60,881 nt of DNA. It comes from Lachnospiraceae bacterium (GTDB lineage: Bacteria; Bacillota; Clostridia; Lachnospirales; Lachnospiraceae). Of the stretch, positions 4,683 through 58,724 are shown one piece after another. The translations under genes and the position numbers were made by a program. Location of the stretch: positions 1-60,881 of the forward strand of contig JAUNOA010000005.1 of the NCBI GenBank assembly GCA_030531245.1, written 5' to 3'. The stretch's first letter is position 1. Each line of letters opens with the position of its first letter. The notes beneath the pieces were generated by a model. The model was not told where the DNA came from and did not search any database. It saw only the letters and a program-made list of their open reading frames with translations.

Positions 4683-5882
4683 ATGAAGAAAAAGATCAGA
4701 AAAATCAGTGTTCCCGGTGATAAATCCATCACTCACAGAGCTATAATCATAGGATCTTTAGCAAGAGGAAAGACTCGTATAATCAATCCTCTTGTTTGTG
4801 ATGATACCATGTCGACTGTCTCCGCAATGAGAAGTCTGGGTATTACAGTGCTTAAAGAGGAAAAAAGTCTGACAGTCTTAGGTCATGGAATAAACGGGCT
4901 GAAAAAACCATCGTATATAATCGACTGCGGTAACAGTGCTACAACCATGCGCCTGCTGATGGGGATTCTATCCGGTCAGGAATTCGATTCATATCTTACC
5001 GGAGATGAAAGTCTGATGAAAAGGCCCATGGACCGTGTAATCATTCCTCTTTCACAAATGGGAGCTTTAATTACCAGGGAAGGTAATGCTTATCATATTT
5101 CAGGCAGAAAACTGCACTCTATAAACTATACCATGCCGGTATCAAGTGCACAGGTAAAATCAGCTATAATGCTTGCAGATTTATTTGCTGAACGCAATTC
5201 GGTAATCAATGATCCCGGGAAAAGCAGAAATCATACAGAACTCATGCTCGATTATTTCGGCAAAACACTTAAAGGAAAGAAAATAATAATACCCGGGGAT
5301 ATAAGTTCGGCGGCATATCATATTGCAGAAACCTTAATATCTCCCGGAGCGGAAATTATCATAAAAAATGTAGGAATCAACGAAACCAGAACCGGCTTTA
5401 TAGATGTCATACGCTCTATGGGGGCTCAGGTTCAGATAAAAAACAAAAAGTCTTTTGCAAATGAACCCGTTGCAGATATACATGTCAGAAATTCGGCATT
5501 ATACGGAACAAGCATAAAAAATCCGGTTATTCCAAGAGTAATTGATGAGATTCCTCTGCTGGCGGTTCTTGCTGCATTTGCCGAAGGAAAAACCGAAATA
5601 CGTGATTCCTCCGAATTAAGGCTAAAGGAGTCCGACCGGATCAATTCCGTCATACAGGGACTTAAATCCATAGGTGTAAACGTATCCGAAAGAGCCGATG
5701 GTATGGATATAACCGGAACTATGCCCGAAGATATGCAGGCAGCAGAAATTGATTCGTACGCTGACCATAGGATTGCAATGTCATTTTTAATTCTGACACA
5801 TATCATTCCGGGTCTTAAAGTAAAAAACAAAGAATGTGTGGCAGTTTCCTACCCCACATTCTTTAAGGATTTTCACATTTGA
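4683..5882 (+). CDS. aroA: 3-phosphoshikimate 1-carboxyvinyltransferase (EPSP synthase)
   Basis: This enzyme joins phosphoenolpyruvate to shikimate-3-phosphate, the sixth step of chorismate synthesis. PGDKSITHR (11-19) carries the phosphate-binding lysine; SAQVK, RNHTE and the C-terminal DHRIAMS are also present. At 399 aa it is shorter than the usual ~430. A segment of about 15 residues between RNHTE and PGDISSAAY is missing compared with Bacillus-type enzymes. The position of the classical glyphosate-contact glycine (Gly96 in E. coli) is Ala86 here, in GNSATTMR. It is monocistronic, and its 3' end overlaps typA by 10 bp tail-to-tail. The reading frame is intact and the other motifs are kept, so it should be active. 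Confidence 0.93.
   Translation: MKKKIRKISVPGDKSITHRAIIIGSLARGKTRIINPLVCDDTMSTVSAMRSLGITVLKEEKSLTVLGHGINGLKKPSYIIDCGNSATTMRLLMGILSGQEFDSYLTGDESLMKRPMDRVIIPLSQMGALITREGNAYHISGRKLHSINYTMPVSSAQVKSAIMLADLFAERNSVINDPGKSRNHTELMLDYFGKTLKGKKIIIPGDISSAAYHIAETLISPGAEIIIKNVGINETRTGFIDVIRSMGAQVQIKNKKSFANEPVADIHVRNSALYGTSIKNPVIPRVIDEIPLLAVLAAFAEGKTEIRDSSELRLKESDRINSVIQGLKSIGVNVSERADGMDITGTMPEDMQAAEIDSYADHRIAMSFLILTHIIPGLKVKNKECVAVSYPTFFKDFHI
5822..5864 (-). terminator. typA terminator embedded in aroA coding sequence
   Basis: AAAGAATGTG (5829-5838) and CACATTCTTT (5855-5864) form a perfect 10-bp stem. On the minus strand the stem is followed by a T-run (A's at 5822-5827). It lies just past the typA stop codon, entirely within the last 60 bases of aroA. 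Confidence 0.7.
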
Positions 5883-7714
5883 GATTTTGTTTTAAACATA
5901 GCTCTCTTCCGAAGCACCGGATCAAGAATCTTTTTTCTGATTCTGAGATTCTGCGGTGTGATTTCAAGAAGCTCGTCTGTGTCTATAAATTCCAGACTCT
6001 GCTCAAGACTCATGATCTTGGGCGGAACAAGTCTTAAAGCCTCATCGGCACTCGATGAACGGGTGTTGGTGAGTTTTTTCGTTTTACAAACGTTAATCTC
6101 TACGTCTTCTGATTTACCGGTTTGTCCGATGATCATCCCTGCATATACTTTTTGTCCGGGACCGATGAAGAGCTCTCCTCTTTCCTGAGCATTGAATAAT
6201 CCATAGGTGATGGATTCCCCGCTTTCGAAACAGATGATTGAACCGTTTCTTCTGTAGAACATTTCCCCCTTGAAAGGCGCGTATCCGTCGAACTCGGTAT
6301 TGATGATTCCCTCACCCTTTGTATCGGTCATGAATTCTCCTCTGTAACCTATAAGACCTCTTGAGGGTATGGAAAATTCGAGCCTCGTATATCCACCGTG
6401 AATAGGCGTCATTCCCATCAGATCACCTTTTCGTGCTGTCAGCTTCTGTATAACCGAACCCGTGTATGCTTCTGGAACATCTATATAAGCTATCTCCATC
6501 GGTTCCTGTTTCTGGTTGTTTTCGTTGTATTTATAGATTACTTCAGCTTTACTTACTGCAAACTCATATCCCTCTCTTCTCATATTTTCAATGAGTACCG
6601 AAAGATGCAGTTCACCTCGACCGCTGACCTTATATGTATCCGGTGAATCCGTCTCTTCGACTCTGAGTGAAACATCTGTATTAAGTTCACGGAAAAGTCT
6701 GTCACGTATGTGTCGGGATGTGACATACTTACCTTCCTGTCCAGCAAGAGGCGAATCATTAACCATAAAGAACATAGATATGGTAGGTTCGGAAATTTTC
6801 TGGAAAGGAATAGCCTTGGGATTTTCAGGTGAAGTTATAGTATCTCCTATATGAATATCGCTAATACCGCTTATAGCTACTATACTTCCTACAGTAGCTT
6901 CATTCACTTCTACTCTGGCCAGTCCGTCAAACTCATACAGTTTTCCTATTTTTATTTTTCTGAGTTTATCAGGCTCATGATGATTGACTATAGCGCATTC
7001 CTGGTTTACCTTTATGGTCCCGTTATCCACCTTGCCTACACCGATACGACCTACATATTCATTGTAATCTATGGTACTGATAAGGACCTGTGTATCTGCT
7101 TCAGGATCACCTTCCGGAGCAGGTATTGATTTGATTATGGTTTCAAACAGCGGAACCATATCATTGTTGCTGTCATCAAGTGAATATCTGCACCATCCTG
7201 TTCTTGCGCTTGCAAATACAAACGGACATTCTAGCTGTCTGTCATTTGCCTCCAAATCCATAAGGAGTTCCAGTACTTCATCTACGACTTCGTCTGCCCG
7301 GGCTTCCGCGCGGTCGCATTTATTGATGCAGCAGATGATATCAAGATCGAGTTCGATAGCTTTCTTAAGAACAAATTTTGTCTGGGGCATAACTCCTTCA
7401 TATGCATCTACGACCAGAATTACTCCGTTTACCATCTTAAGTACGCGCTCAACTTCTCCTCCGAAATCAGCATGTCCGGGTGTGTCGATAATGTTGATTT
7501 TAGTATCTTTATATGTAACGGCCGTGTTTTTTGACAATATGGTTATACCGCGTTCACGCTCTATATCATTCGAATCCATGACACGGTCAACAAGCTCCTG
7601 ATTAGCTCTGAAGATACCGCTCTGTCTCAAAAGCTGATCGACAAGGGTAGTTTTTCCGTGATCTACGTGTGCGATGATGGCTACATTTCTGACATTATCT
7701 CTTTTAATCTTCAT
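5873..7714 (-). CDS. typA: ribosome-associated translational GTPase TypA/BipA
   Basis: TypA is an EF-G-like GTPase that binds the ribosome and supports 50S assembly and growth under stress or cold. IAHVDHGKTTLVDQLL near the N-terminus is G1, RGITI is G2, DTPGHADFGGEV is G3 and NKCDR is G4. The translation-factor domains and the TypA-specific C-terminal domain (GRGELHLSVL, PSRGLIGYRGEFMT) follow. Its 613 aa matches the family. The stop codon lies 10 bp inside aroA on the opposite strand. The start overlaps the stop of the upstream YigZ gene by four bases. Confidence 0.96.
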   Translation of the reverse strand: MKIKRDNVRNVAIIAHVDHGKTTLVDQLLRQSGIFRANQELVDRVMDSNDIERERGITILSKNTAVTYKDTKINIIDTPGHADFGGEVERVLKMVNGVILVVDAYEGVMPQTKFVLKKAIELDLDIICCINKCDRAEARADEVVDEVLELLMDLEANDRQLECPFVFASARTGWCRYSLDDSNNDMVPLFETIIKSIPAPEGDPEADTQVLISTIDYNEYVGRIGVGKVDNGTIKVNQECAIVNHHEPDKLRKIKIGKLYEFDGLARVEVNEATVGSIVAISGISDIHIGDTITSPENPKAIPFQKISEPTISMFFMVNDSPLAGQEGKYVTSRHIRDRLFRELNTDVSLRVEETDSPDTYKVSGRGELHLSVLIENMRREGYEFAVSKAEVIYKYNENNQKQEPMEIAYIDVPEAYTGSVIQKLTARKGDLMGMTPIHGGYTRLEFSIPSRGLIGYRGEFMTDTKGEGIINTEFDGYAPFKGEMFYRRNGSIICFESGESITYGLFNAQERGELFIGPGQKVYAGMIIGQTGKSEDVEINVCKTKKLTNTRSSSADEALRLVPPKIMSLEQSLEFIDTDELLEITPQNLRIRKKILDPVLRKRAMFKTKSQM

Positions 7715-33234: not shown

Positions 33235-33308
33235 CGAGGCGTGGCTCAGTTTGGTAGAGCGCCGCGTTCGGGACGCGGAGGCCGCAAGTTCAAGTCTTGT
33301 CGCCTCGA
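33235..33308 (+). tRNA. tRNA-Pro (anticodon CGG)
   Basis: The acceptor stem CGAGGCG pairs with CGCCTCG. The anticodon arm CCGCG-TTCGGGA-CGCGG gives CGG with G37, typical of tRNA-Pro. The T-loop is TTCAAGT. The discriminator is A and the CCA end is not encoded. It decodes CCG. Confidence 0.95.
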
Positions 33309-33320
33309 CTATCATCGACT

Positions 33321-33392
33321 GGCCAATTAGTCAAGCGGCTAAGACGCCGCCCTCTCACGGCGGAGACCCGGGTTCGATTCCCGGATTGGTCA
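33321..33392 (+). tRNA. tRNA-Glu (anticodon CTC)
   Basis: The acceptor GGCCAAT pairs with ATTGGTC with one G-T pair. The anticodon arm CCGCC-CTCTCAC-GGCGG gives CTC, decoding GAG. The T-arm is CCGGG-TTCGATT-CCCGG. No CCA is encoded. It lies 12 bp after tRNA-Pro in the same transcript. Confidence 0.94.
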
Positions 33393-33429
33393 TAACTGCT
33401 TCGGTCATCCGGAGCTCTTTTTTTACCAT

Positions 33430-33502
33430 GCTTCCGTTGCACAGTCGGTAGTGCACTTCATTCGTAATGAAGGGGTCGCCGGTTCGAGTCCGGCCGGGAG
33501 CT
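33430..33502 (+). tRNA. tRNA-Thr (anticodon CGT)
   Basis: The acceptor GCTTCCG pairs with CGGGAGC (one T-G pair). The anticodon arm CTTCA-TTCGTAA-TGAAG gives CGT, decoding ACG. The T-arm is GCCGG-TTCGAGT-CCGGC. The acceptor stem runs directly into a T-run (33502-33507), which probably ends the transcript. Confidence 0.94.
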
Positions 33503-44075: not shown

Positions 44076-46901
44076 TTATTCATCAGATTCAAGTTCTATC
44101 TTCATTGTATTCTTACCAAGCTTAATTCCCTTATCACGGAAAAGTTCCAATGTGGCAAGCAGAACTTTACGACGTGTTGAACCGGTTTTCTCTTCACTGC
44201 AAGATGCCCACATACAGATAGTTATACCTGAAGAACTGAAAGAGTCGATATAGGAAAAGAAAGGTCCTGCAGTAATCTGCGGAATTCTTGTCTGGTACCA
44301 TTCAGACGATTCTGCAATAAGAGTATCAATTCTGTTTATATCTTCATCCGGCCCGACTTCAAGTTCAATCCATACCGAAGACATTTCATCTGACAGACGG
44401 TAAAACTGCTTAAGATCAGAATTATTTACGATAAGTTTCTTATTATGTTTTTTAATTACGGTGACTCTTGCACCTACTTCACTCACCTCTCCACGGAATC
44501 CATCAAATCTTACATAATCTCCGACTTTTATGTTGCCTTCAAAAATCAAGAATAATCCGGCAATAAGGTCTCCGCAGATATCCTTTGCAGCAATACCTAT
44601 TACCAGCCCTGCCAACCCTGCGCTTGCCAACAACGCAGTTGTATTGACTCCGAATTGATAGAGTGTATGCATAATGATAAAAAACAAGCCTAAAAATTTT
44701 AGAATACTGTTTATTATGGTGCTTATCGTGGTTCCTTTATCTCCTATACAATTAGCTACTAAACTGATTAATTTTGATAAAAGATAAACCACAATCACTG
44801 TAACGACTGCAATTATGACGCTGGCATTAATTGAAAACAGATTAATACCCTTATCCCATTTTCCTCCGAATATAAATCCAACTACAGTCTGATCTCCCGC
44901 AGTCTCCTTAAATATCATAAATACATAACTGACTATCAGGACTATAAATTCATATTTGAGCATATTACGGAAAAAGGAATCTGCAAATAATGTCTCTTTT
45001 CTTCCTGCAATATCTTGTTCCGGAATACAAATCTCATTCTGACATTTATCTGTTTCTTCGGCATCAAAAGAGCAGATACAACCCAAAAACAGAACGATCA
45101 TCATCAACACAAATCCTGACAGAAGTAAAATAAGATTTAACATGAGGTTGAAATCAAGCAGCGTACAGTCAATAGCACTGATTATTAAAAGGCTGTCATT
45201 CTTTCTTGTGTTAACATAAGATTTTGAACCATCAATTGTTGCAAGTCCGGAATAATTATTCTCCTCAATTTCTTCCGGTATCTTACTCTCGGTTTTTAAA
45301 ACATCTGTACTGTACGGGCGGATAATATATGTTGTAATATCGTCTTCAAATTTGATATAGAACATAGTGGCATTTCCAAAGTCTGTATCCCGGATAGCAG
45401 AATCTTTGGAATAATACTTAAGTATACGGGACAGATATTCATTTTCAAATTTGAGACAGATGGCTCCGGGAGCATCTTTACGTTTGACTGAAATAAGATA
45501 ACTACCTGCATTTTCATCGTAATTCACAAAACAGGAATCTTTATCTTCGTTAAGTACAATACGAACTGAATACATCGGATCTTCTTGATTTTGTGTCAGT
45601 TCATATCCATAATAGTCATCGGAGGAGGCTTCAAGAACACCGTTTTTGTCATATACGGATATTTCCTTTAATAAACATTCTCCGGCAATTTTATTCAGCT
45701 GTTCATGTGAATTTAACCCGGGATGAATACAAAGGAGATCCGACAGTTTGTCCGCAATTCCCAACAGATAATCTTCTACCAACCCTTCAAGTATAATCTT
45801 ATCCTCTTCGCATGCCTGAATATTTTCTGTAAGCATATCGAGATTTTGAGTAGAAAGAACATTTTGAACAGAATAAGTAGAAAACTTCAGGACATGAGTA
45901 TTAAAGAGCAATGTGATAATCAGCACCAGAACAACAAAACTCAGAACATATCGTATAATTGTTCCCTCAATATATTTTTTTGTATTGAATATCCGTATCC
46001 ATTTTGCATTTTTTTCTTCAAAATTATTCCAAAGTGCGAAGAAAAATATGAGTATAACAATAAAACTGCCAATCAGCATTACAGAAGGTGTTACTATTTC
46101 ATTAATTATTGCCTTTATAATTTCTTCATAACTGAAATACAGCCCCAATACATAACCATCCAACTCAGATGTCATGCAATAAACTGTTCCTGTGTTGAAT
46201 TCTGTAAATCCGTATTTGAAATCAGAATTCTTGCTTTTACAATTTTTATCACTGCCTATGGATGATGGTTTAAAATCCCGGGAAATATAATCACCGATAA
46301 GATTAGTATCATATGCATCAATTATAATTCCGTCTGAGGATGCTATAAAATACGGAAATCTTTCGGAAATTCCGGTTAATCTACTGTTGTTTCCGAGTTT
46401 TATGTTTTTTTCATAACAAATAATCAAACTCCCCTGTGGAATTTCTTTGCAATAATAATTCAACTCGTTTCCGGAACTATTTACAACAAGCTCCCGGTTA
46501 TTAAACAGCTGATTCAGTTGTTGCTGAGAAAGGTCAAGTGATCGTGCATTCTTTGATGAGAAAACTTTTCCGGCTGAATCAATTAAATAAAAACTATTGA
46601 CATCATTTTCAAGAAAATCCAATGAATCCTGAATATCTGCTTCTTCGTTAAATAGAATGTCAATAATGCATTCGTTTCCTTTCCTAATATCTTCAGATAT
46701 AACTGAATACATTTCCTGGATACTTATTTCACGCTGATACTTGTTCTCAAATGTTGACAATGTACTGCTCATACCTGAATGAATTAAAGACATGGTGTCT
46801 AATGCATTACTATAAGTCAATATTGCGATACATGCTAAAAGTATTAGTATCGAACAAACAATGACAAATATCTTTTTATGGGCATTTAAAGCTGTTTTCA
46901 T
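44076..46901 (-). CDS. MscS-family channel with two extracytoplasmic domains
   Basis: The C-terminal ~250 residues are MscS-like: the pore helix TALLASAGLAGLVIGIAAKD, the beta domain (VGDYVRFDGFRGEVSEVG) and the alpha/beta C-terminal domain. The N-terminal two-thirds is unusual. A first membrane helix (about 10-28) and a ~235-residue Cache-like extracytoplasmic domain are followed by a membrane hairpin (about 265-335). A second ~230-residue outside domain comes next, and then further helices before the pore. At 941 aa it is far longer than MscS (about 290). It follows the ABC pair by 24 bp with GGAGG, so it is probably co-transcribed. The likely role is ligand- or tension-gated release of solutes; the ligand is unknown. 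Confidence 0.85.
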   Translation of the reverse strand: MKTALNAHKKIFVIVCSILILLACIAILTYSNALDTMSLIHSGMSSTLSTFENKYQREISIQEMYSVISEDIRKGNECIIDILFNEEADIQDSLDFLENDVNSFYLIDSAGKVFSSKNARSLDLSQQQLNQLFNNRELVVNSSGNELNYYCKEIPQGSLIICYEKNIKLGNNSRLTGISERFPYFIASSDGIIIDAYDTNLIGDYISRDFKPSSIGSDKNCKSKNSDFKYGFTEFNTGTVYCMTSELDGYVLGLYFSYEEIIKAIINEIVTPSVMLIGSFIVILIFFFALWNNFEEKNAKWIRIFNTKKYIEGTIIRYVLSFVVLVLIITLLFNTHVLKFSTYSVQNVLSTQNLDMLTENIQACEEDKIILEGLVEDYLLGIADKLSDLLCIHPGLNSHEQLNKIAGECLLKEISVYDKNGVLEASSDDYYGYELTQNQEDPMYSVRIVLNEDKDSCFVNYDENAGSYLISVKRKDAPGAICLKFENEYLSRILKYYSKDSAIRDTDFGNATMFYIKFEDDITTYIIRPYSTDVLKTESKIPEEIEENNYSGLATIDGSKSYVNTRKNDSLLIISAIDCTLLDFNLMLNLILLLSGFVLMMIVLFLGCICSFDAEETDKCQNEICIPEQDIAGRKETLFADSFFRNMLKYEFIVLIVSYVFMIFKETAGDQTVVGFIFGGKWDKGINLFSINASVIIAVVTVIVVYLLSKLISLVANCIGDKGTTISTIINSILKFLGLFFIIMHTLYQFGVNTTALLASAGLAGLVIGIAAKDICGDLIAGLFLIFEGNIKVGDYVRFDGFRGEVSEVGARVTVIKKHNKKLIVNNSDLKQFYRLSDEMSSVWIELEVGPDEDINRIDTLIAESSEWYQTRIPQITAGPFFSYIDSFSSSGITICMWASCSEEKTGSTRRKVLLATLELFRDKGIKLGKNTMKIELESDE

Positions 46902-50750: not shown

Positions 50751-53700
50751 TTAATGCTTTATCCAGGCACCGTTTGCATCCACTTCATATCCGTCCGGTG
50801 TTTTCTCCGAAACGTACATGGAACCTAACGAACGTCCGGATCCTTTGTAGATCCATATGCCTTTCTCATCCTGTATCCAAGTATGATTACCGGAACCGGT
50901 GAATAAATAATACCATTTTCCCTTGTCTTCTATCCATCCTGTCCGCATACTGCCATCTTCAGGATCCAGATAATACCACTTTCCATCCTGTCTGTCCAGA
51001 TGCCATCCCTTAATCATTACTCCGAAGCTACTTCCGGGATTTTCATTAAGATAATACCATTTCTTTTCACTCTGGTCAAAGAACCATCCGCTGTCCAGGA
51101 TACCGTCGGCATTCATGTGGTAGTAATTATATCCGTTTGAGGCCGGAATATATCCCCAGCCTTTGAATGAAGAACCGTCATAGCAGATGAACCTCCAGTC
51201 CCCGTCTTCATTCTGCTTCCATTTTCCTGTCATATGTTTTGCGCTCTTCGGGCCGTTTCCCGGTCTGAATGAACTGCTATGTCCTGAAGTGCCACCTCCG
51301 GCGGCAGCGTCTTTAACCTCTATGTTAAAGACGCTTTCCGAGCCATAGGGATCAATAGAGACATGAAGCTTTGTTGTTCCTTTCTTTAAGCCGCGAAGTA
51401 TACCGTTTTCCACAACGGCAATGTCTGTATCTTCTATCATACATACTGCAGTACCGTTCCTGTAATAGCTGTCAGGACTGTATGATACATTAAGTTTCTG
51501 GGACTCACCGCATCTTATGGAAATGGTCTCACCATCCACAGCATTATTTACACGTATATTAAGAACTGTATCCAGATATGCACGTATACTGCAGTAATCT
51601 GAAAGCCTGTCACCGTTTTTATCGACAAGGACAGCAGTCATGTCCTGATAACCAGACTCGCACAGTCCGGCGTCTGCAGGTACTTTTACTTCGAAACGGC
51701 CGCTCTTATTGATAGCTATATCCGGAAGCGGAGCTGAGATATCAACATTCTTACCGCCGTTGGCATCATAAATCAATATATGATCCGTTTCTCCCAGAGA
51801 ACGGAAGGAATAGTTTGTAATTGTTCCGCTGATTATGAAATCATTGCCGTCCTGCCTTGATTCAATATCAGAAAGCCCGATATCTGAATTTTCGAAAACG
51901 CAATACAAATCATATGAAATGAATGCCTCATTGCCAGAACGGTTAATGAACATAAGTGAATCTTTTTCCTCATCAAGTTCAGCTTCTACTGTAAAGAATG
52001 TCGTACTTCCGGCCGGAAGGCGTTTCTCATATCTGTCGGTAAGCATGCCGGAATCAGGAGATGCTTCATTTCCGTTTACCATGCATAGGCCATAATCAAA
52101 CGACTCTGTAGCTTTCAGTCCGGTATTTCTTACACCAACCTTAAGGCGGAATCTGTCTCCTGGTTTTTCGGGATAAGTCTCTACTGTTACAGAATCCAGT
52201 TCAAGCTGCGGCATTGGCTCAAATAATGTGGAAACCAGTTCCTGTTCCGAAGCCTGATAAGCTTCACCGTTCTCGTTTGAATTGAATTTGAAACGGTTGC
52301 CTACCATCATTATTTTGTTATCGGCACAAGCAAATTCAGGCAGCTCATTCATTTTATTGCTGCGGCTCATACGAACACCGTCTGACCATGAAGTCCCGGA
52401 CATATCGCTTTCTTCTGCATTGTAATCGTCAAATACCAGACCGGAAACATAGATGTCCTGACTGAAATCTCCGTCTTCCTCTTTTGAATCCGAGGATTCC
52501 TGCCATGCAACATACATATCACACTTGCAGTCTGTGCATTCATCAGATGTCTCTGAAGTCATCGGATTTCCTGAGAATATCCTGTAATTATTGACGGTAA
52601 CTCCTTTTATTCCTTTTGAAGTCATGTTAGTACCGGCTGTCGACTGAAATCCGTTATATTTTCCATCAGAGCTATTCAGAAGAAGACCGGAAAGATTGAC
52701 GTACTTAAGGACTTTTCCGTCAGATAACCATACAAGATAAGCAGTGCTATCGCACTTTACAATCTGCGGGAGGCTGTCATTGACAGTATTATCTGTTATA
52801 CGGATCGGTTCTGAATATTCATGATTATCAAAATCATATGTCTGAACAAATATCTCGCGGTCTTTTTCGGTAGAAAGTACCTGATCTGTATCTACCGAGT
52901 AAGCCAGTACTCCCATATTCTTTTTGGTATTCAGGATTTCCTCTTTTAATTGTATGGCTTTTTCACTGTCGATGTCTCCTGCATCGTATATTTCTTTTCT
53001 TCTGGCTTCCAGTTCATCTGCGTCATAAACTATAATATCGGCATCTGACAGCACTGCATCACCTATTGCGGGATTGTTGATGCCCTCTGAAACTATAGGA
53101 GATTTTACAAATCTCTGTCCGTTTAATTCACGAATCAGCGGTGCAGGATCTGTTCCTTCTGCCAGTTCACCTGAATAATATCTGTCACGTACCCATTCGC
53201 CGTCTTCATAAAGCATATACATAAGCTCTGAGTTGTTCAGCTCCGGAGAAGCAGAAGTAATCAGAGTCTGTGCATTTTCAATTTCCGGGACCTCAGACTT
53301 GTAATACATAACTAAAATCTGTTCCTTGCCTCCTTCATTGCTGTAAAGCGCAAAAGGAGTAGTATCATAGTTCTGATCATCGGTCAGCTGCACTGTATCT
53401 GATATCTGAAGAGAATCCTTATCAAAATCAGCGGCATATATTTCCAGACTCTCAAGATAGTTTTTATATTCTGGGTTGCCTACCAGTTTCTGTTCTCTGG
53501 ATACCCATGTTATCAGAATCCTGTTGCCGGCATCACACAGCGACGGTGAGAAATCTGCCGTGCAGTCACCCTGAACTGTCAGCGGCTTTGTCCATGTATT
53601 GTCCTCAATATCATATACAGTGTACTTAAGCTCAGTTCGTTCATCATCGTTAAGATCCATGTTGTCATCCAGATATACCATAAGGATCTTCTCTTTTCCT

Positions 53701-56700
53701 TCGGAGGTGAAGTTCATAAGCTTTTGTGAAGGATTGTCAAACCCGTTTCTGACAATTGTCTGCTCTTCTGAATATGAGTATAACTGCTGTCTGTCCTGTG
53801 AATACTCCGAAATTCCGGATACGATCTTTTCGGCAGGCTGATCTCCTTCAAAAACAGATGATGATTCATTTCTCGGCTTTCTGACAATAACAGCATCGGA
53901 TATGGAACCGAGAACATCAGAATCTGATTCTGTCTTCTTTTTCTTTTTGTCCAGATCTTCAAAATAACCCATTTTGTACCAGTCATCCCAGGTATGAATC
54001 GGAATAGGAATAGACAGAAGAATAACATCCGCCCAGAATCTGATTCCTCCGATTACTGCAAATCCGACTTCGCGCATATCTGAATATGACCTCTTTATCG
54101 TTGGATTATATATAAACAAAAGAGTCAGATTAAATCCTCCGCGGATACCTAATGTTCCGCATATACCAACTCCGGCATAGGCATTAGCAGTTAATACAGA
54201 CTGGAAAATGAACTCAAAATGTGTATTTTTAATAAGGTCATCGAAGAAACTCTGATCCGGATCACCGCCTGAAAAAGGAATCTGTTTTCCTTCATCGACT
54301 GCGGCACCGAATTCTCCGAGCAGAGTAAGGCTGACATCTCCTCCGACATAAACCGGTACACCATATATAAGCATATAGTAGGTATACCTGAATGTTCCCA
54401 TGACTCCGATATATCCGCCGCCGCCTTTGAACATCCATTGATTCTGAATCTGATCGTCGTTATTCTTGGTTATTCCGAATTCGAAATAAATACCGGCCAT
54501 CGGTTCAATACTCCATGCCGGAATACCCAATGACATGGCATTAAGAATATTTTTAGAACCAAAGGTTGACACCATATCAGACATATCCTTGAAAACATTT
54601 GTAATATTGGCTACATCTGTCACACTGTAGTCAAATCCGGTGTCTGAAGCAATTTTTCCGTTTCCGTCAAAGTGATTGTTTCTTGATTTTATCTGCTTAC
54701 CGAAGAATATTCGGATACCGCCAGGTTCTCCCGACGGAGAAATACCGAAAGACATTCCCAATGCATTAACAAAGCATGTCAGATCTCCGATAATCGGAAG
54801 TTGATAGAATTCTTTTACCGGAAAATTAATGTTTATGAGATTTGGAACCTTCGGATTTGGTTCGCTGAATACGATACCGGTATTGATCATTGCATATTCA
54901 CAGACTTTCTTGCCCGTATCTTCACCGGTAATTCTGTCGGTAATCATTTTCACATAAAGCCGGTCTCCGCTCTTATACTGTGAATAGTAACCTGTCTGAA
55001 ATGTATCTTCATAAGTCCATTCAGCCGGATTCGTATCTGATTTTTTAGCCTTATAGGTGGCTTTCTGTTTTTTTGTATCAGGATCAACAACAACAAAAAT
55101 AACATCCGTCACGTTTTCAGACGCACTATGTGTATTTCCGTCTGCATCTGTATAAGAGTACTCATAGGACTTGCCGGTAAGTGGATCCACAAGCTGTAAA
55201 GTAGCCGTAAGATCAGTAATGTCATCGTTGATGGAAATGGTCCTTGATACACCGGAAATCCTTTGTTTTGCCACTACAGTATTAAAATGAACCCTGTCTG
55301 TTGAAATAGGGTTAACAAGGAATGAACCCATATCATTATAATAATAGGTAACCGTCTTTCCGGTAGCCGGGTCTTCCTTCGCTTTTCCTGATGACTTGTT
55401 CAGTTTTACGTTTTTCCAGATTTCGTCTCCGTCTGCATAGAAACGGTATTTGATACAGTATCCTTCTTTTCCCGGAAAGAGCATAGTCTCGAACTTTCCT
55501 TCACTGTCACTGATACCGTAATGTGTACGGTCGGTTGTAATATAGACACCGGGCGCTTTATGCCACTTGTCGGATGATACGGAACCGTCAAGAGAAGAAT
55601 CACTGTAATAGACCTGACCTCCTAGTGAATATAAATTGTCAGGCTTTTCTGCAGAAAGATAAACTGTGTTTGTATCAGGATCTTCGGTTCCTTCGAAATA
55701 GTATTCATTCTGCATGAACTTTGCTCCATCCAGATACTTTCCTTCCCATACAGGTGTCAGATTCTTATCTATTGTTGATGCGGACAGGATGTAACGTGTT
55801 CCGGCAACATGCGAAGTGCCTGTTTGTGCCTCAGAATAAGAGACATCTTTATCAATGACATATCGGAAGTATTGTCCGTCTGTTTCCGGAGTGATTGAAA
55901 AAATGCCGGTTTTCTCAAATTTATCAGCATCCTCTTTACGTACACAGACTGTCATGGAATTCTGTTTTTTTGAATACTGTGTCTCTGCCTGTGTCTGTGC
56001 TGCCGTAAGAACAGCCCTTGTCGTATCGAGAGCTATATCTTTTCCCTGGGCATCTTTTTCATGTTCACGCAATCTTCCGACAGTTTCTCCTTTAGGAACA
56101 ACATTTGTTACATTTATCTGATTCCATGTGAAACCGGAATCCTTCATATCCACATGATAAATGACTGTATCACCGAGATGGAAATCGTAATTTGTAGAAC
56201 CGGCTTTGGATGTTCCCTGCCTGATAGTTCCATTTCCGCCTTCAACAGTTACCGAAGCTCTGTCATCATTTTTTACGGACAGCTGTGCTGACTTGGTTTT
56301 AAGCAGAGCACGAACGCGAAAACGTCCGTAATCACCACGGTCACCGCCGTCTATCTGACAGAATTCTATAAGATCTTTATTGTTACTGATCAGCTTATTG
56401 GTAATCGGCAGTGAAACACTTGTTGTGCTTTCATCAAGACCGTCCATAATAACAACAGATTTTGTACCGTCCCAGGATTCAAGTACAAGTCCGGAAATAT
56501 AAGTATATTTTGCATTGTCCAGTGCTACGGTAATGCTGTTGTTATTTGTGTTGGTAATAAGTACATTGTCATTGGAATTTAACAAAATTGTCCTGTTTTC
56601 CGACTCCATACCGGAAATCTCAGTGTTTTTTTTGATTTTTCCGTCGGGCGCAATGAATTCTACTGAGTTTGAGCCCGAAAGACCTATCATAAAAGGACGA

Positions 56701-58724
56701 TAAACAGGCTTTACGTCATAGATAGTAAGAGTAGGACTCCTGCCGAAAAATCCGCCATTTCTTAATATATAAAAACCATATTCAAAGCATTCCTTTACTC
56801 CATGTCTGAAAAAATAACAGTTGGATTGCCTCTCCCAATCTCTGTCATCGCCTTCCCACAAGGACACCCATCCGGCTCCGGTTTCATGTTCGTAGAATTG
56901 AAACTTTGTCTTTCCGTAGCCAGGCCAGCCCTGCTCTCTTTTCCAGTCTACCATCAGACCGCTGTAATCGTAATGAGGTTCAGAAAAAGCAAAAAAGGCT
57001 CCGGCCGATACGTCTTTCAAATCGTTTTCTGCATGCAGAACCCAGGAGGTTCCGTCAGCCCGGGAGTAGCATTTGGGACAGTCAGCGCCGGAAGAGTATA
57101 CTCCTTTTTCACTTACATCAGCAGTAATAATGTCCCGAAGACCGATGATTCTTCCGTTTGAAGTATCATCCTCGGTCTGTCCGGTTTCGGAAGAGGATGC
57201 TTTTGCCGCAGCTTCAGCATCAAAACTTAAATCTGTTGTACGGATGATGCCTGCTGCCTCGTTTCGTTCACCTATTACACAATCAACAGCTTCCTGAAGT
57301 TTAAGTTTGAACGAAACGTCTTTATTTAGATATGTGCTTACTACGGGTATTTTTACAATACGTTTTGTGATGCCATACCCGAAAATCACCTGTGCGTGCA
57401 CCTTGGAATAATCTCTGGTATTCATGGCAGAAATATCCTCGGTATCAAGCATGACACTTGCAATACTGTTGGTGTTCACAGACCTTTCAATTGTAACTGT
57501 GATGAATCCGTTCTCGGGGTAATAGCTGTCATCAGAGAATTCCACAACTGCCGGTTCATATTCCTCATCATCGAGAATTTTCAGTGTGAAATTGCTGTAA
57601 ATACCTGAAATCTGTTCATCGTTTTCGCCTGACAGATTAAAACCGGATTGTTTGTCTCCTTCTCCGTCTGAATTATCGATAGTGCGTATATCTATATACT
57701 TTTCTGTATCACCTTCATCAAATTCAAGAATTACATAAGCGGAAGAAAGAGCATCTGTTATTGAAGAAATACTGTTACTCATGTAACCTGAGGACTGTGA
57801 TGACAGATCGTCTGTTATAGACATCGGTGATATTTCATCTCCGAGAGCCATCACCTGTCTATCATCTTTTAATCCGGTGGCATACTCCTTGGCCCGGGCA
57901 AGTGAAGAAAACTCTGATGGAGTTGCTGTGGTATCCATATAATCTCCGATAGCATCTGCAGACTCTTCATAATCAGATAAGGAAGGAGATGCAATTGTGA
58001 CAGCATCTGCAGACTCTTCATAATCAGATGATGAAGGAGAGGCAATTGTAACAGCATCTGCAGGCTCTTCATCAGCAGACGAGGAAGGAGAGGCAATTGT
58101 AATAGCATCTGTATGGTCTTCATCCTCCGTTTCTGTTATAGCTTGATTGTCATTGCCGGAGGATCCGTTCAGAAGAAAATCCGCAGCTGTTTCCAAAGAC
58201 TGCTGCATTTGTGCGGTTTCCTCATCACTAAGAGCGAGATTTTCAATCTCCTCATCAGACATCTGATTATCAGATGTTATCGTTCCGTCAATGATTGCAT
58301 CGGAATAGTTGTATTCAGATAAAGAATCTTCATGCTCAAGCATATAGTCTTTTATGGAGATACTTTCATTTTGATTATTCACTCCTCCGGTAAATATATT
58401 TGCATCTTCAGCACTGACTATGTAATCTTTTCCATAGGATGCGGTCATATCCAGCATAGTTACTCTGATGTCCGCTTTTGGCAGATCTGTCCCGTTACGT
58501 TTTATATACAACCTGTATATCCCTGGATCATCTTCTCCTATTTCCGCTTCAGCTGCATTAAAATAAAACATACCATCGGTAATGCAGGTTTCGTCAATTT
58601 GCTGTTCCGGGATTATGACCGGTTCTTCTGCAGCAAATGCAGTCACCGGGACTGACATAATCATCAACGTACCGGCGAGCAGAAATGCTGTAAATCTCTT
58701 AATAGCACTCGTTAATTTCTTCAT
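50751..58724 (-). CDS. giant secreted multidomain protein with cell-wall-binding repeats
   Basis: A 2657-aa exported protein. Residues 1-32 are a Sec signal peptide ending in VTAFAAEE. Calx-beta-like sandwiches appear at about 45-115 and 325-495. An acidic Ser/Asp-rich linker (about 195-275) holds three tandem 17-residue repeats (DAVTIASPSSSDYEESA). A glycine- and aromatic-rich region of alternating hydrophobic strands spans about 1330-1590. About 1660-2160 looks like a beta-propeller (repeating strands such as ILMVYLDDN and YLVWLSDG). CARDB-like (about 2175-2380) and Big_2-like (about 2390-2480) Ig domains follow. Aromatic wall-binding repeats (about 2495-2657; GKWYYLDPEDGSMRTGWI) probably hold it on the surface. 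There is no LPxTG. The function is unknown: adhesion, glycan binding or surface assembly are possible. Confidence 0.85.
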   Translation of the reverse strand: MKKLTSAIKRFTAFLLAGTLMIMSVPVTAFAAEEPVIIPEQQIDETCITDGMFYFNAAEAEIGEDDPGIYRLYIKRNGTDLPKADIRVTMLDMTASYGKDYIVSAEDANIFTGGVNNQNESISIKDYMLEHEDSLSEYNYSDAIIDGTITSDNQMSDEEIENLALSDEETAQMQQSLETAADFLLNGSSGNDNQAITETEDEDHTDAITIASPSSSADEEPADAVTIASPSSSDYEESADAVTIASPSLSDYEESADAIGDYMDTTATPSEFSSLARAKEYATGLKDDRQVMALGDEISPMSITDDLSSQSSGYMSNSISSITDALSSAYVILEFDEGDTEKYIDIRTIDNSDGEGDKQSGFNLSGENDEQISGIYSNFTLKILDDEEYEPAVVEFSDDSYYPENGFITVTIERSVNTNSIASVMLDTEDISAMNTRDYSKVHAQVIFGYGITKRIVKIPVVSTYLNKDVSFKLKLQEAVDCVIGERNEAAGIIRTTDLSFDAEAAAKASSSETGQTEDDTSNGRIIGLRDIITADVSEKGVYSSGADCPKCYSRADGTSWVLHAENDLKDVSAGAFFAFSEPHYDYSGLMVDWKREQGWPGYGKTKFQFYEHETGAGWVSLWEGDDRDWERQSNCYFFRHGVKECFEYGFYILRNGGFFGRSPTLTIYDVKPVYRPFMIGLSGSNSVEFIAPDGKIKKNTEISGMESENRTILLNSNDNVLITNTNNNSITVALDNAKYTYISGLVLESWDGTKSVVIMDGLDESTTSVSLPITNKLISNNKDLIEFCQIDGGDRGDYGRFRVRALLKTKSAQLSVKNDDRASVTVEGGNGTIRQGTSKAGSTNYDFHLGDTVIYHVDMKDSGFTWNQINVTNVVPKGETVGRLREHEKDAQGKDIALDTTRAVLTAAQTQAETQYSKKQNSMTVCVRKEDADKFEKTGIFSITPETDGQYFRYVIDKDVSYSEAQTGTSHVAGTRYILSASTIDKNLTPVWEGKYLDGAKFMQNEYYFEGTEDPDTNTVYLSAEKPDNLYSLGGQVYYSDSSLDGSVSSDKWHKAPGVYITTDRTHYGISDSEGKFETMLFPGKEGYCIKYRFYADGDEIWKNVKLNKSSGKAKEDPATGKTVTYYYNDMGSFLVNPISTDRVHFNTVVAKQRISGVSRTISINDDITDLTATLQLVDPLTGKSYEYSYTDADGNTHSASENVTDVIFVVVDPDTKKQKATYKAKKSDTNPAEWTYEDTFQTGYYSQYKSGDRLYVKMITDRITGEDTGKKVCEYAMINTGIVFSEPNPKVPNLININFPVKEFYQLPIIGDLTCFVNALGMSFGISPSGEPGGIRIFFGKQIKSRNNHFDGNGKIASDTGFDYSVTDVANITNVFKDMSDMVSTFGSKNILNAMSLGIPAWSIEPMAGIYFEFGITKNNDDQIQNQWMFKGGGGYIGVMGTFRYTYYMLIYGVPVYVGGDVSLTLLGEFGAAVDEGKQIPFSGGDPDQSFFDDLIKNTHFEFIFQSVLTANAYAGVGICGTLGIRGGFNLTLLFIYNPTIKRSYSDMREVGFAVIGGIRFWADVILLSIPIPIHTWDDWYKMGYFEDLDKKKKKTESDSDVLGSISDAVIVRKPRNESSSVFEGDQPAEKIVSGISEYSQDRQQLYSYSEEQTIVRNGFDNPSQKLMNFTSEGKEKILMVYLDDNMDLNDDERTELKYTVYDIEDNTWTKPLTVQGDCTADFSPSLCDAGNRILITWVSREQKLVGNPEYKNYLESLEIYAADFDKDSLQISDTVQLTDDQNYDTTPFALYSNEGGKEQILVMYYKSEVPEIENAQTLITSASPELNNSELMYMLYEDGEWVRDRYYSGELAEGTDPAPLIRELNGQRFVKSPIVSEGINNPAIGDAVLSDADIIVYDADELEARRKEIYDAGDIDSEKAIQLKEEILNTKKNMGVLAYSVDTDQVLSTEKDREIFVQTYDFDNHEYSEPIRITDNTVNDSLPQIVKCDSTAYLVWLSDGKVLKYVNLSGLLLNSSDGKYNGFQSTAGTNMTSKGIKGVTVNNYRIFSGNPMTSETSDECTDCKCDMYVAWQESSDSKEEDGDFSQDIYVSGLVFDDYNAEESDMSGTSWSDGVRMSRSNKMNELPEFACADNKIMMVGNRFKFNSNENGEAYQASEQELVSTLFEPMPQLELDSVTVETYPEKPGDRFRLKVGVRNTGLKATESFDYGLCMVNGNEASPDSGMLTDRYEKRLPAGSTTFFTVEAELDEEKDSLMFINRSGNEAFISYDLYCVFENSDIGLSDIESRQDGNDFIISGTITNYSFRSLGETDHILIYDANGGKNVDISAPLPDIAINKSGRFEVKVPADAGLCESGYQDMTAVLVDKNGDRLSDYCSIRAYLDTVLNIRVNNAVDGETISIRCGESQKLNVSYSPDSYYRNGTAVCMIEDTDIAVVENGILRGLKKGTTKLHVSIDPYGSESVFNIEVKDAAAGGGTSGHSSSFRPGNGPKSAKHMTGKWKQNEDGDWRFICYDGSSFKGWGYIPASNGYNYYHMNADGILDSGWFFDQSEKKWYYLNENPGSSFGVMIKGWHLDRQDGKWYYLDPEDGSMRTGWIEDKGKWYYLFTGSGNHTWIQDEKGIWIYKGSGRSLGSMYVSEKTPDGYEVDANGAWIKH
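57952..58104. repeat. three tandem 51-bp repeats inside the giant gene
   Basis: Three head-to-tail 51-bp units (57952-58002, 58003-58053, 58054-58104) encode 17-residue repeats, with a decayed fourth starting at 58105. The unit length is a multiple of three, so changes in copy number keep the reading frame. Units 1 and 2 are nearly identical, suggesting recent duplication. Confidence 0.9.

Follow-up and report, generated by a model that had tools for sequence, protein, structure and literature searches.

A predicted amphipathic, possibly barrel-like beta-meander within a family of giant, putatively wall-anchored surface proteins of Clostridia

Introduction

The stretch of 60,881 nucleotides from a Lachnospiraceae bacterium analysed here (in the following referred to as the window) carries a giant gene on the minus strand, and the question raised by this locus is what a segment of long amphipathic beta-strands in the middle of the encoded chain may form, and what it may do on the surface of a Gram-positive cell. 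A preliminary description of the DNA, made from the sequence alone, had considered a surface pore, a fibre or a carrier. The protein belongs to a large and conserved family that occurs in Clostridia of gut and rumen. Its core has no model in Pfam, NCBIfam or PDB, so that a name for the family and a single solved core structure would provide annotation for many giant proteins now listed as hypothetical. In the literature searched, which comprised main texts accessible without subscription, no description of the giant family or of the peptide paired with some of its members was found.

Location and domain layout of the giant gene

The open reading frame at 50751–58724 on the minus strand was confirmed and encodes 2657 aa (P0001). 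The giant gene is present in a single copy in the source genome (1.84 Mb in 101 contigs), and further matches to the giant in this genome are restricted to its wall-binding repeats. Upstream of the giant gene, and on its strand, lie rpsB and tsf; a pair of genes for MsbA-type ABC transporters follows downstream. The giant's system probably does not include these neighbours, since a full-length relative from the same genus as the window (34% identity) has different neighbouring genes. Elsewhere in the window, a 941-aa protein is encoded on the minus strand at 44076–46901, its only clear Pfam domains being mechanosensitive-channel domains near the C-terminus (residues 733–827), with no assignment for the long N-terminal portion, and a tRNA cluster for Pro, Glu and Thr lies at 33235–33502.

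All features of the giant given in the following are encoded on the minus strand. As read from the sequence, the chain starts with a signal peptide (residues about 1–32, 58629–58724) with a basic start, a hydrophobic stretch and the motif AFA-A (hydropathy 1.93). A Calx-beta-like stretch follows (residues 40–115, 58380–58607), which is conserved in the family alignment and whose window copy has no Pfam match. The Calx-beta domain proper is located at residues 391–478 (57291–57554; Pfam PF03160, E 5.4e-10, above the cut-off); at E ≤ 0.01 this domain was found in 15 of 18 family members, the window included, in one scan and in 17 of 18 in another. Residues 540–1030 (55635–57107) form a beta-rich region without Pfam match that was delimited by its conservation along the family, and residues 1031–1290 (54855–55634) probably comprise carboxypeptidase-regulatory-like and Ig-like modules, as judged by sequence reading and conservation only. 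The core, residues 1300–1592 (53949–54827), was defined by alignment, hydropathy and structure models. It is followed by a repeat region that may form a propeller (residues 1645–2165, 52230–53792), which has the highest mean conservation score among the blocks compared and gave no credible match in a profile search of PDB. A CARDB-like and Big2-like stalk (residues 2170–2470, 51315–52217) was assigned by CARDB and Big_2 matches in homologues, the sole Pfam match of the window protein in this stretch being a sub-threshold one to HL_N-beta.

The chain ends in a predicted choline-binding wall anchor (residues 2498–2657, 50754–51233; Pfam PF19127, E 3.1e-11, above the cut-off), whose repeats match solved structures of choline-binding proteins (best 2.6e-13, phmmer against PDB). 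By sequence, the window protein thus carries the tandem choline-binding repeats of choline-binding wall-anchored surface proteins, and the wall-binding repeats proposed earlier for its end were borne out. The core had also been placed between Calx-beta-like and propeller-like parts; a Calx-beta domain is indeed present, but about 800 residues ahead of the core.

Distribution of the family and exchange of wall anchors

Searches with the single core sequence gave matches in 4 of 299 genomes of the same taxonomic family, the source genome counted, and a 6-row core profile matched 9 of 392 genomes of the order and, among 398 genomes of the phylum, the source genome only. At class level, the only level at which an 18-row core profile was applied, 34 of 391 Clostridia genomes were matched, with frames mostly of 2200–3400 aa and with two or more copies in several genomes. 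The scan of named genomes yielded 7 loci, all from Lachnospiraceae, Clostridiales or Clostridia MAGs, some of them from goat and water-deer reticulum. No relative of the giant was found on viral contigs, and on plasmids the wall-binding repeat alone was matched, in 1 record. Taken by their sequences, these proteins would constitute a family of giant wall-anchored surface proteins with a patchy distribution in Clostridia.

The relatives align over most of the length of the body and differ at the C-terminus. Among the 36 giants scanned for anchors, SLH domains were found in 21, choline-binding repeats in 6 and CWB2 in 1; one further giant outside this set (L093) has a sortase-substrate-like end by eye. 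That the body is conserved while the wall anchor changes from member to member argues most strongly for surface display, which is strongly implied for the family and likewise for the giant of the window. The giant would be exported by a Sec-type route, as the signal peptide strongly implies, and would be attached to the wall by whichever wall-binding module its host uses, here the choline-binding repeats.

Some members depart from the common layout. Two of them (L042 and L043) have about 300 extra residues between core and propeller-like block that read as a ricin-type lectin; two Pfam scans of 18 members each gave a RicinB match in a single member, and L043 had no match. Behind another giant, two more predicted secreted proteins with similar N-termini are encoded (L052:8428–11683).

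Composition and strand pattern of the core

Residues 1330–1590 had been described as strands rich in Gly, Tyr and Phe, and the two motifs quoted for them begin at residues 1434 and 1515. The enrichment holds for Gly (13.4% against 8.2% in the whole protein) and Phe (8.4% against 4.0%), but Tyr on its own shows no enrichment (5.0% against 5.3%). Aromatic residues taken together (FWY) account for 15.4% of residues 1300–1592 and for 10.0% of the remainder of the protein. The core sequence by itself matched nothing in Pfam, NCBIfam or PDB, nor did its 18-row profile in PDB. The core is one of the better conserved blocks of the family alignment and lies in mid-chain, flanked by large soluble regions.

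The core is markedly amphipathic. In an alignment of 37 sequences (effective number 27), strong alternation of hydrophobic and polar positions, i.e. at least 2.5 KD units in 15-residue windows, was found in 40.5% of 158 core windows and in 3.6% of 1154 windows elsewhere. In 18 of 18 giants it is also the core that contains the strongest 19-residue hydropathy peak, the signal region excluded. In 20 aligned sequences the two faces of single strands are sharply separated: mean values on the KD scale are +2.34 on the apolar face and −1.06 on the other at residues 1456–1476, +2.59 (polar fraction 0.00) and −1.07 at residues 1501–1521, and +2.82 and −1.52 at residues 1553–1567. In both alternation and hydropathy the core departs widely from the remaining beta-domains of these proteins.

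Runs of alternating apolar positions extend over 11–21 positions in 34 cores, 7–11 in five E. coli K-12 barrels, with limits that we take to be those of these barrels, and 7–9 in three soluble proteins; the longest runs in the cores cross hairpin turns. An argument that the strands are too long for a membrane was dropped, as the E. coli barrels reach 11 as well and the longer runs of the cores pass turns. As judged from the sequence pattern, the core has the long alternating apolar/polar strands of outer-membrane barrels, and the centre of the body is strongly implied to be a meander of about 290 residues with long antiparallel strands, one face of which is almost fully apolar.

The richness in Gly and aromatic residues would also suit amyloid-like or fibre-forming strands, as had been suggested alongside amphipathic barrel strands. 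On reading, however, no tandem repetition of the core strands was seen, every strand has its own conserved signature across the family, and the models described below show a compact meander, so that an amyloid or fibre is regarded as very improbable. The barrel part of the suggestion gained partial support from the alternation and the models, while nothing specific supports the amyloid part.

Structure models of the core

The AlphaFold model of the window core, computed together with 7 relatives, had a pLDDT of 50.7 (60–70 over most of the meander) and a pTM of 0.49, with strands at model positions 139–156, 162–189, 192–212, 237–257, 261–275 and 289–303. A second AlphaFold model, obtained for a relative that is about 26% identical in the core, showed the same strand order at a pLDDT of 52.3 and a pTM of 0.44; both runs were based on 8-row alignments of the same eight proteins and are therefore not fully independent. 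Foldseek returned nothing at E ≤ 0.001 for either model.

In VIA comparisons, for which rows were drawn only from Foldseek's own shortlist, outer-membrane barrels headed the lists of both models. The best row was CymA (4v3g; Z 10.8, rmsd 4.2, 201 aligned) for the window core and EspP (2qom; Z 11.0, rmsd 5.0, 174 aligned) for the relative, and both values exceed the best Z of 7–8 that is typical of models without a clear match. Because the models are of low confidence and the shortlist was chosen by Foldseek, this resemblance is taken as a lead and not as a fold assignment. Segment-wise modelling thus gave a barrel-like meander with low pLDDT and no significant Foldseek match. No enzyme or adhesin fold, which would have contradicted the preliminary description, was found for the core, and both models align best with outer-membrane barrels.

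The main rival to a receptor or carrier is a structural adhesin. The protein would then be a large adhesin or stalk, binding host or fibre surfaces via its propeller-like and Ig-like parts, and the core would be a beta-domain of unusual kind but structural role only, such as a big sandwich; the barrel of the models would be spurious, produced by aligning too few sequences with long Gly-rich strands. The low pLDDT, the missing significant match in Foldseek and the domain company of Calx-beta, CARDB, Big_2 and wall anchors, which is that of adhesins, are in line with this, as is the origin of some named records from reticulum MAGs. Two divergent queries nevertheless led to barrel-like models, and the core, which ranks among the better conserved blocks, differs greatly in alternation and hydropathy from its companion beta-domains; an adhesin is therefore considered possible, if somewhat unlikely.

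Orientation of the apolar face

As a rule, beta-barrels of the membrane type go together with an outer membrane and Omp85. In 16 of 16 giant-bearing genomes no Omp85 (PF01103) was detected, while the same control search was positive in 7 of 14 named genomes, and an outer membrane in the giant-bearing hosts is therefore very unlikely.

Genuine outer-membrane barrels usually vary at the positions that face the lipid. Over all columns of the core, the mean JSD was 0.427 on the apolar and 0.397 on the polar face (p = 0.08; entropy p = 0.30), which amounts to no difference between them. With Gly and Pro columns removed the values were 0.423 and 0.344, i.e. the apolar face is the more conserved one, and of all the blocks compared within the protein, the core shows the strongest correlation between hydropathy and conservation. 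The inside-out conservation test thus failed to support a membrane barrel, as the apolar face is not more variable. Since the apolar face does not exceed the polar face in variability, and is more conserved without Gly and Pro, the pattern points weakly to a buried apolar face, which would be that of a soluble barrel or half-pipe. The polar face carries the conserved charged residues R1528, D1566 and E1504 together with glycines, which would also suit a barrel with a polar lumen.

With the apolar face outward, the core might be a membrane-inserting barrel that forms a wall-tethered pore in the own membrane or in that of another cell. The outer-membrane barrels at the top of both VIA lists, the apolar runs of 11–21 positions as compared with 7–11 in the E. 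coli barrels, and the charges and glycines of the polar face are consistent with it. We nevertheless regard such a pore as quite unlikely, given that without Omp85 the usual assembly route is missing, that the apolar face does not vary more than the polar one and that the core is situated in mid-chain amid large soluble regions.

A double-glycine peptide in one branch of the family

The survey of homologues and their neighbours, proposed in the preliminary description, revealed the giant family of Clostridia and, in a branch other than that of the window, peptide and exporter genes beside the giant. NHLP-type exporter genes lie next to or near the giant in 7 of 37 loci searched besides the window (L011, L042, L043, L076, L080, L083 and L084). 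The fullest of these loci have the order HlyD-like, C39 ABC and second ABC, and L042 and L083 additionally contain a gene for a Peripla_BP_6 lipoprotein. The exporter genes of L011, L042 and L043 have the NHLP models TIGR03794, TIGR03796 and TIGR03797 as best NCBIfam matches, all below the curated cut-offs. Matches to TIGR03794 occurred in 12 of 13 genomes, none over the cut-off, with the control search positive in 12 of 14, and are mostly generic.

A generic motif search for a peptide succeeded at one locus only, and a profile search did better. Built from five ORFs, the profile was applied to 38 loci, one of them the window, with 11,370 small frames in total, and at E ≤ 0.01 gave matches in 11 loci, 5 of which had supplied training rows; all matches abut the giant gene. 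The peptide ORF is located on the same strand −15 to +27 nt downstream of the giant in 9 of the 11 loci and just upstream in 2. Double-glycine-leader peptide genes that abut the giant and share a related mature part were located at L042:1162–1311, L043:14882–15025, L074:4570–4731, L075:12341–12502, L076:12768–12905, L077:5317–5454, L080:13481–13636, L083:14226–14378 and L084:3354–3542, and a loose consensus of this mature part centres on PRVP..xDDxxKxxI. In Pfam and NCBIfam the peptide ORFs gave nothing beyond double-glycine leaders and matches at chance level, below cut-off, and the adjoining small ORF scored far below the cut-off of the NHLP leader model. Four of the 38 giant loci lack a 3′ flank, and most giants that have one are without an adjoining peptide ORF.

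In the class sample, 6 of 391 genomes matched the peptide at E ≤ 1e-6, and all 6 are among the 34 core-bearing ones (Fisher p 2.8e-7, or 0.006 without the four of the six genomes that supplied training rows, assuming that both 391-genome samples are the same draw). The source genome, which is one of the six, has leader-part matches only, on other contigs. In the held-out genome G1131, a peptide ORF is located 41 nt behind the giant. The frame of this giant (L123) is interrupted close to the C-terminus, near the SLH end, and the remainder continues in another frame.

Beside the window giant, neither an NHLP exporter nor a peptide gene is present, there being no double-glycine ORF on either side, and its near relatives L041, L049, L051, L052 and L055 have no match to the peptide profile. 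Because window flanks and near relatives show none, the peptide gene is a property of a branch of the family that excludes the window. An NHLP exporter for the window giant was rejected, as the downstream ABC genes best match MsbA-type models, with NHLP below the cut-off, and as the near relatives are without them.

It is conceivable that in the branch with the peptide gene the giant serves as receptor, display scaffold or processing site of the double-glycine peptide, perhaps with a peptide strand completing the core, and that the window member is derived, its peptide being elsewhere or lost. All 11 loci with a profile match have the peptide ORF abutting the giant, all 6 peptide-matching class genomes bear the core, the held-out genome agrees, and NHLP-type exporter genes adjoin 7 giants. 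On the other hand, the window gene and its near relatives have no such ORF beside them, the source genome has leader-part matches only, and most giants with a 3′ flank are without the ORF; as an account of the giant, this is rated as having a small chance.

Further small ORFs were observed in this context. Between exporter and giant, the region L084:1188–3590 contains, by reading, two double-glycine-type ORFs, an ECF-like sigma factor and a subtilisin-like protease. On contig C42 of the source genome (L117/L109, about 5000–6500), several double-glycine-leader ORFs with unlike mature parts stand in a run, and one leader reads in frame into an ABC-ATPase signature (LSGGQRQRLAIARA), like the relic of a transporter gene. 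In genome G559, several small double-glycine-leader ORFs and an NHLP HlyD-like gene are found on one contig (C79, L100), and fragments of the giant are found on other contigs.

Discussion

The reading preferred here, tentatively and at somewhat less than an even chance, is that of a surface receptor or carrier, in which a wall-displayed long-stranded barrel or half-pipe binds something, its apolar face probably pointing inward. The meander would close into this barrel or half-pipe and hold an apolar ligand or a partner strand, and the propeller-like region and the Ig-like stalk would present the core away from the wall. In one branch of the family, which is not that of the window, the partner may be the co-encoded secreted peptide, and giant and double-glycine peptide form a concrete system of their own. 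If the core were a membrane-type barrel in a monoderm, it would either have survived from diderm ancestors or be a fold re-used on the cell surface. A more far-reaching proposal, namely that a single-membrane lineage uses outer-membrane-type barrels as modules of wall-tethered giants, in part together with an operon-exported double-glycine peptide, as a so far undescribed two-component surface device, is considered unlikely.

Among known systems, NHLP-type bacteriocin export systems, the original family being that of PMC2887384, are the source of the best NCBIfam matches, below cut-offs, beside the giants of L011, L042 and L043, and are absent beside the window gene. With the choline-binding, SLH and CWB2 surface proteins of Gram-positive bacteria, the giants have wall-binding repeats and, as read from the sequence, a signal peptide in common; they differ in that the core was matched in none of these families and in that the giants keep the body and exchange the anchor. 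The barrels of the autotransporters EspP, NalP and BrkA and of CymA are the best structural neighbours of the core models; these are outer-membrane proteins of diderms, no sequence relation of the core to them was found, and the models are too uncertain for membership. OmpM of diderm Firmicutes, the nearest known arrangement, has an N-terminal SLH domain, a coiled-coil stalk and a C-terminal 16-strand porin in the outer membrane (PMC10628300). OmpM and the giants share a wall-binding module (SLH in OmpM) and a beta-barrel in one chain, the latter being a low-confidence prediction in the giants, whereas the giants are much larger, live in hosts without Omp85 and show the reverse order, with the core in mid-chain and the anchor, choline-binding in the window and SLH in others, at the C-terminus.
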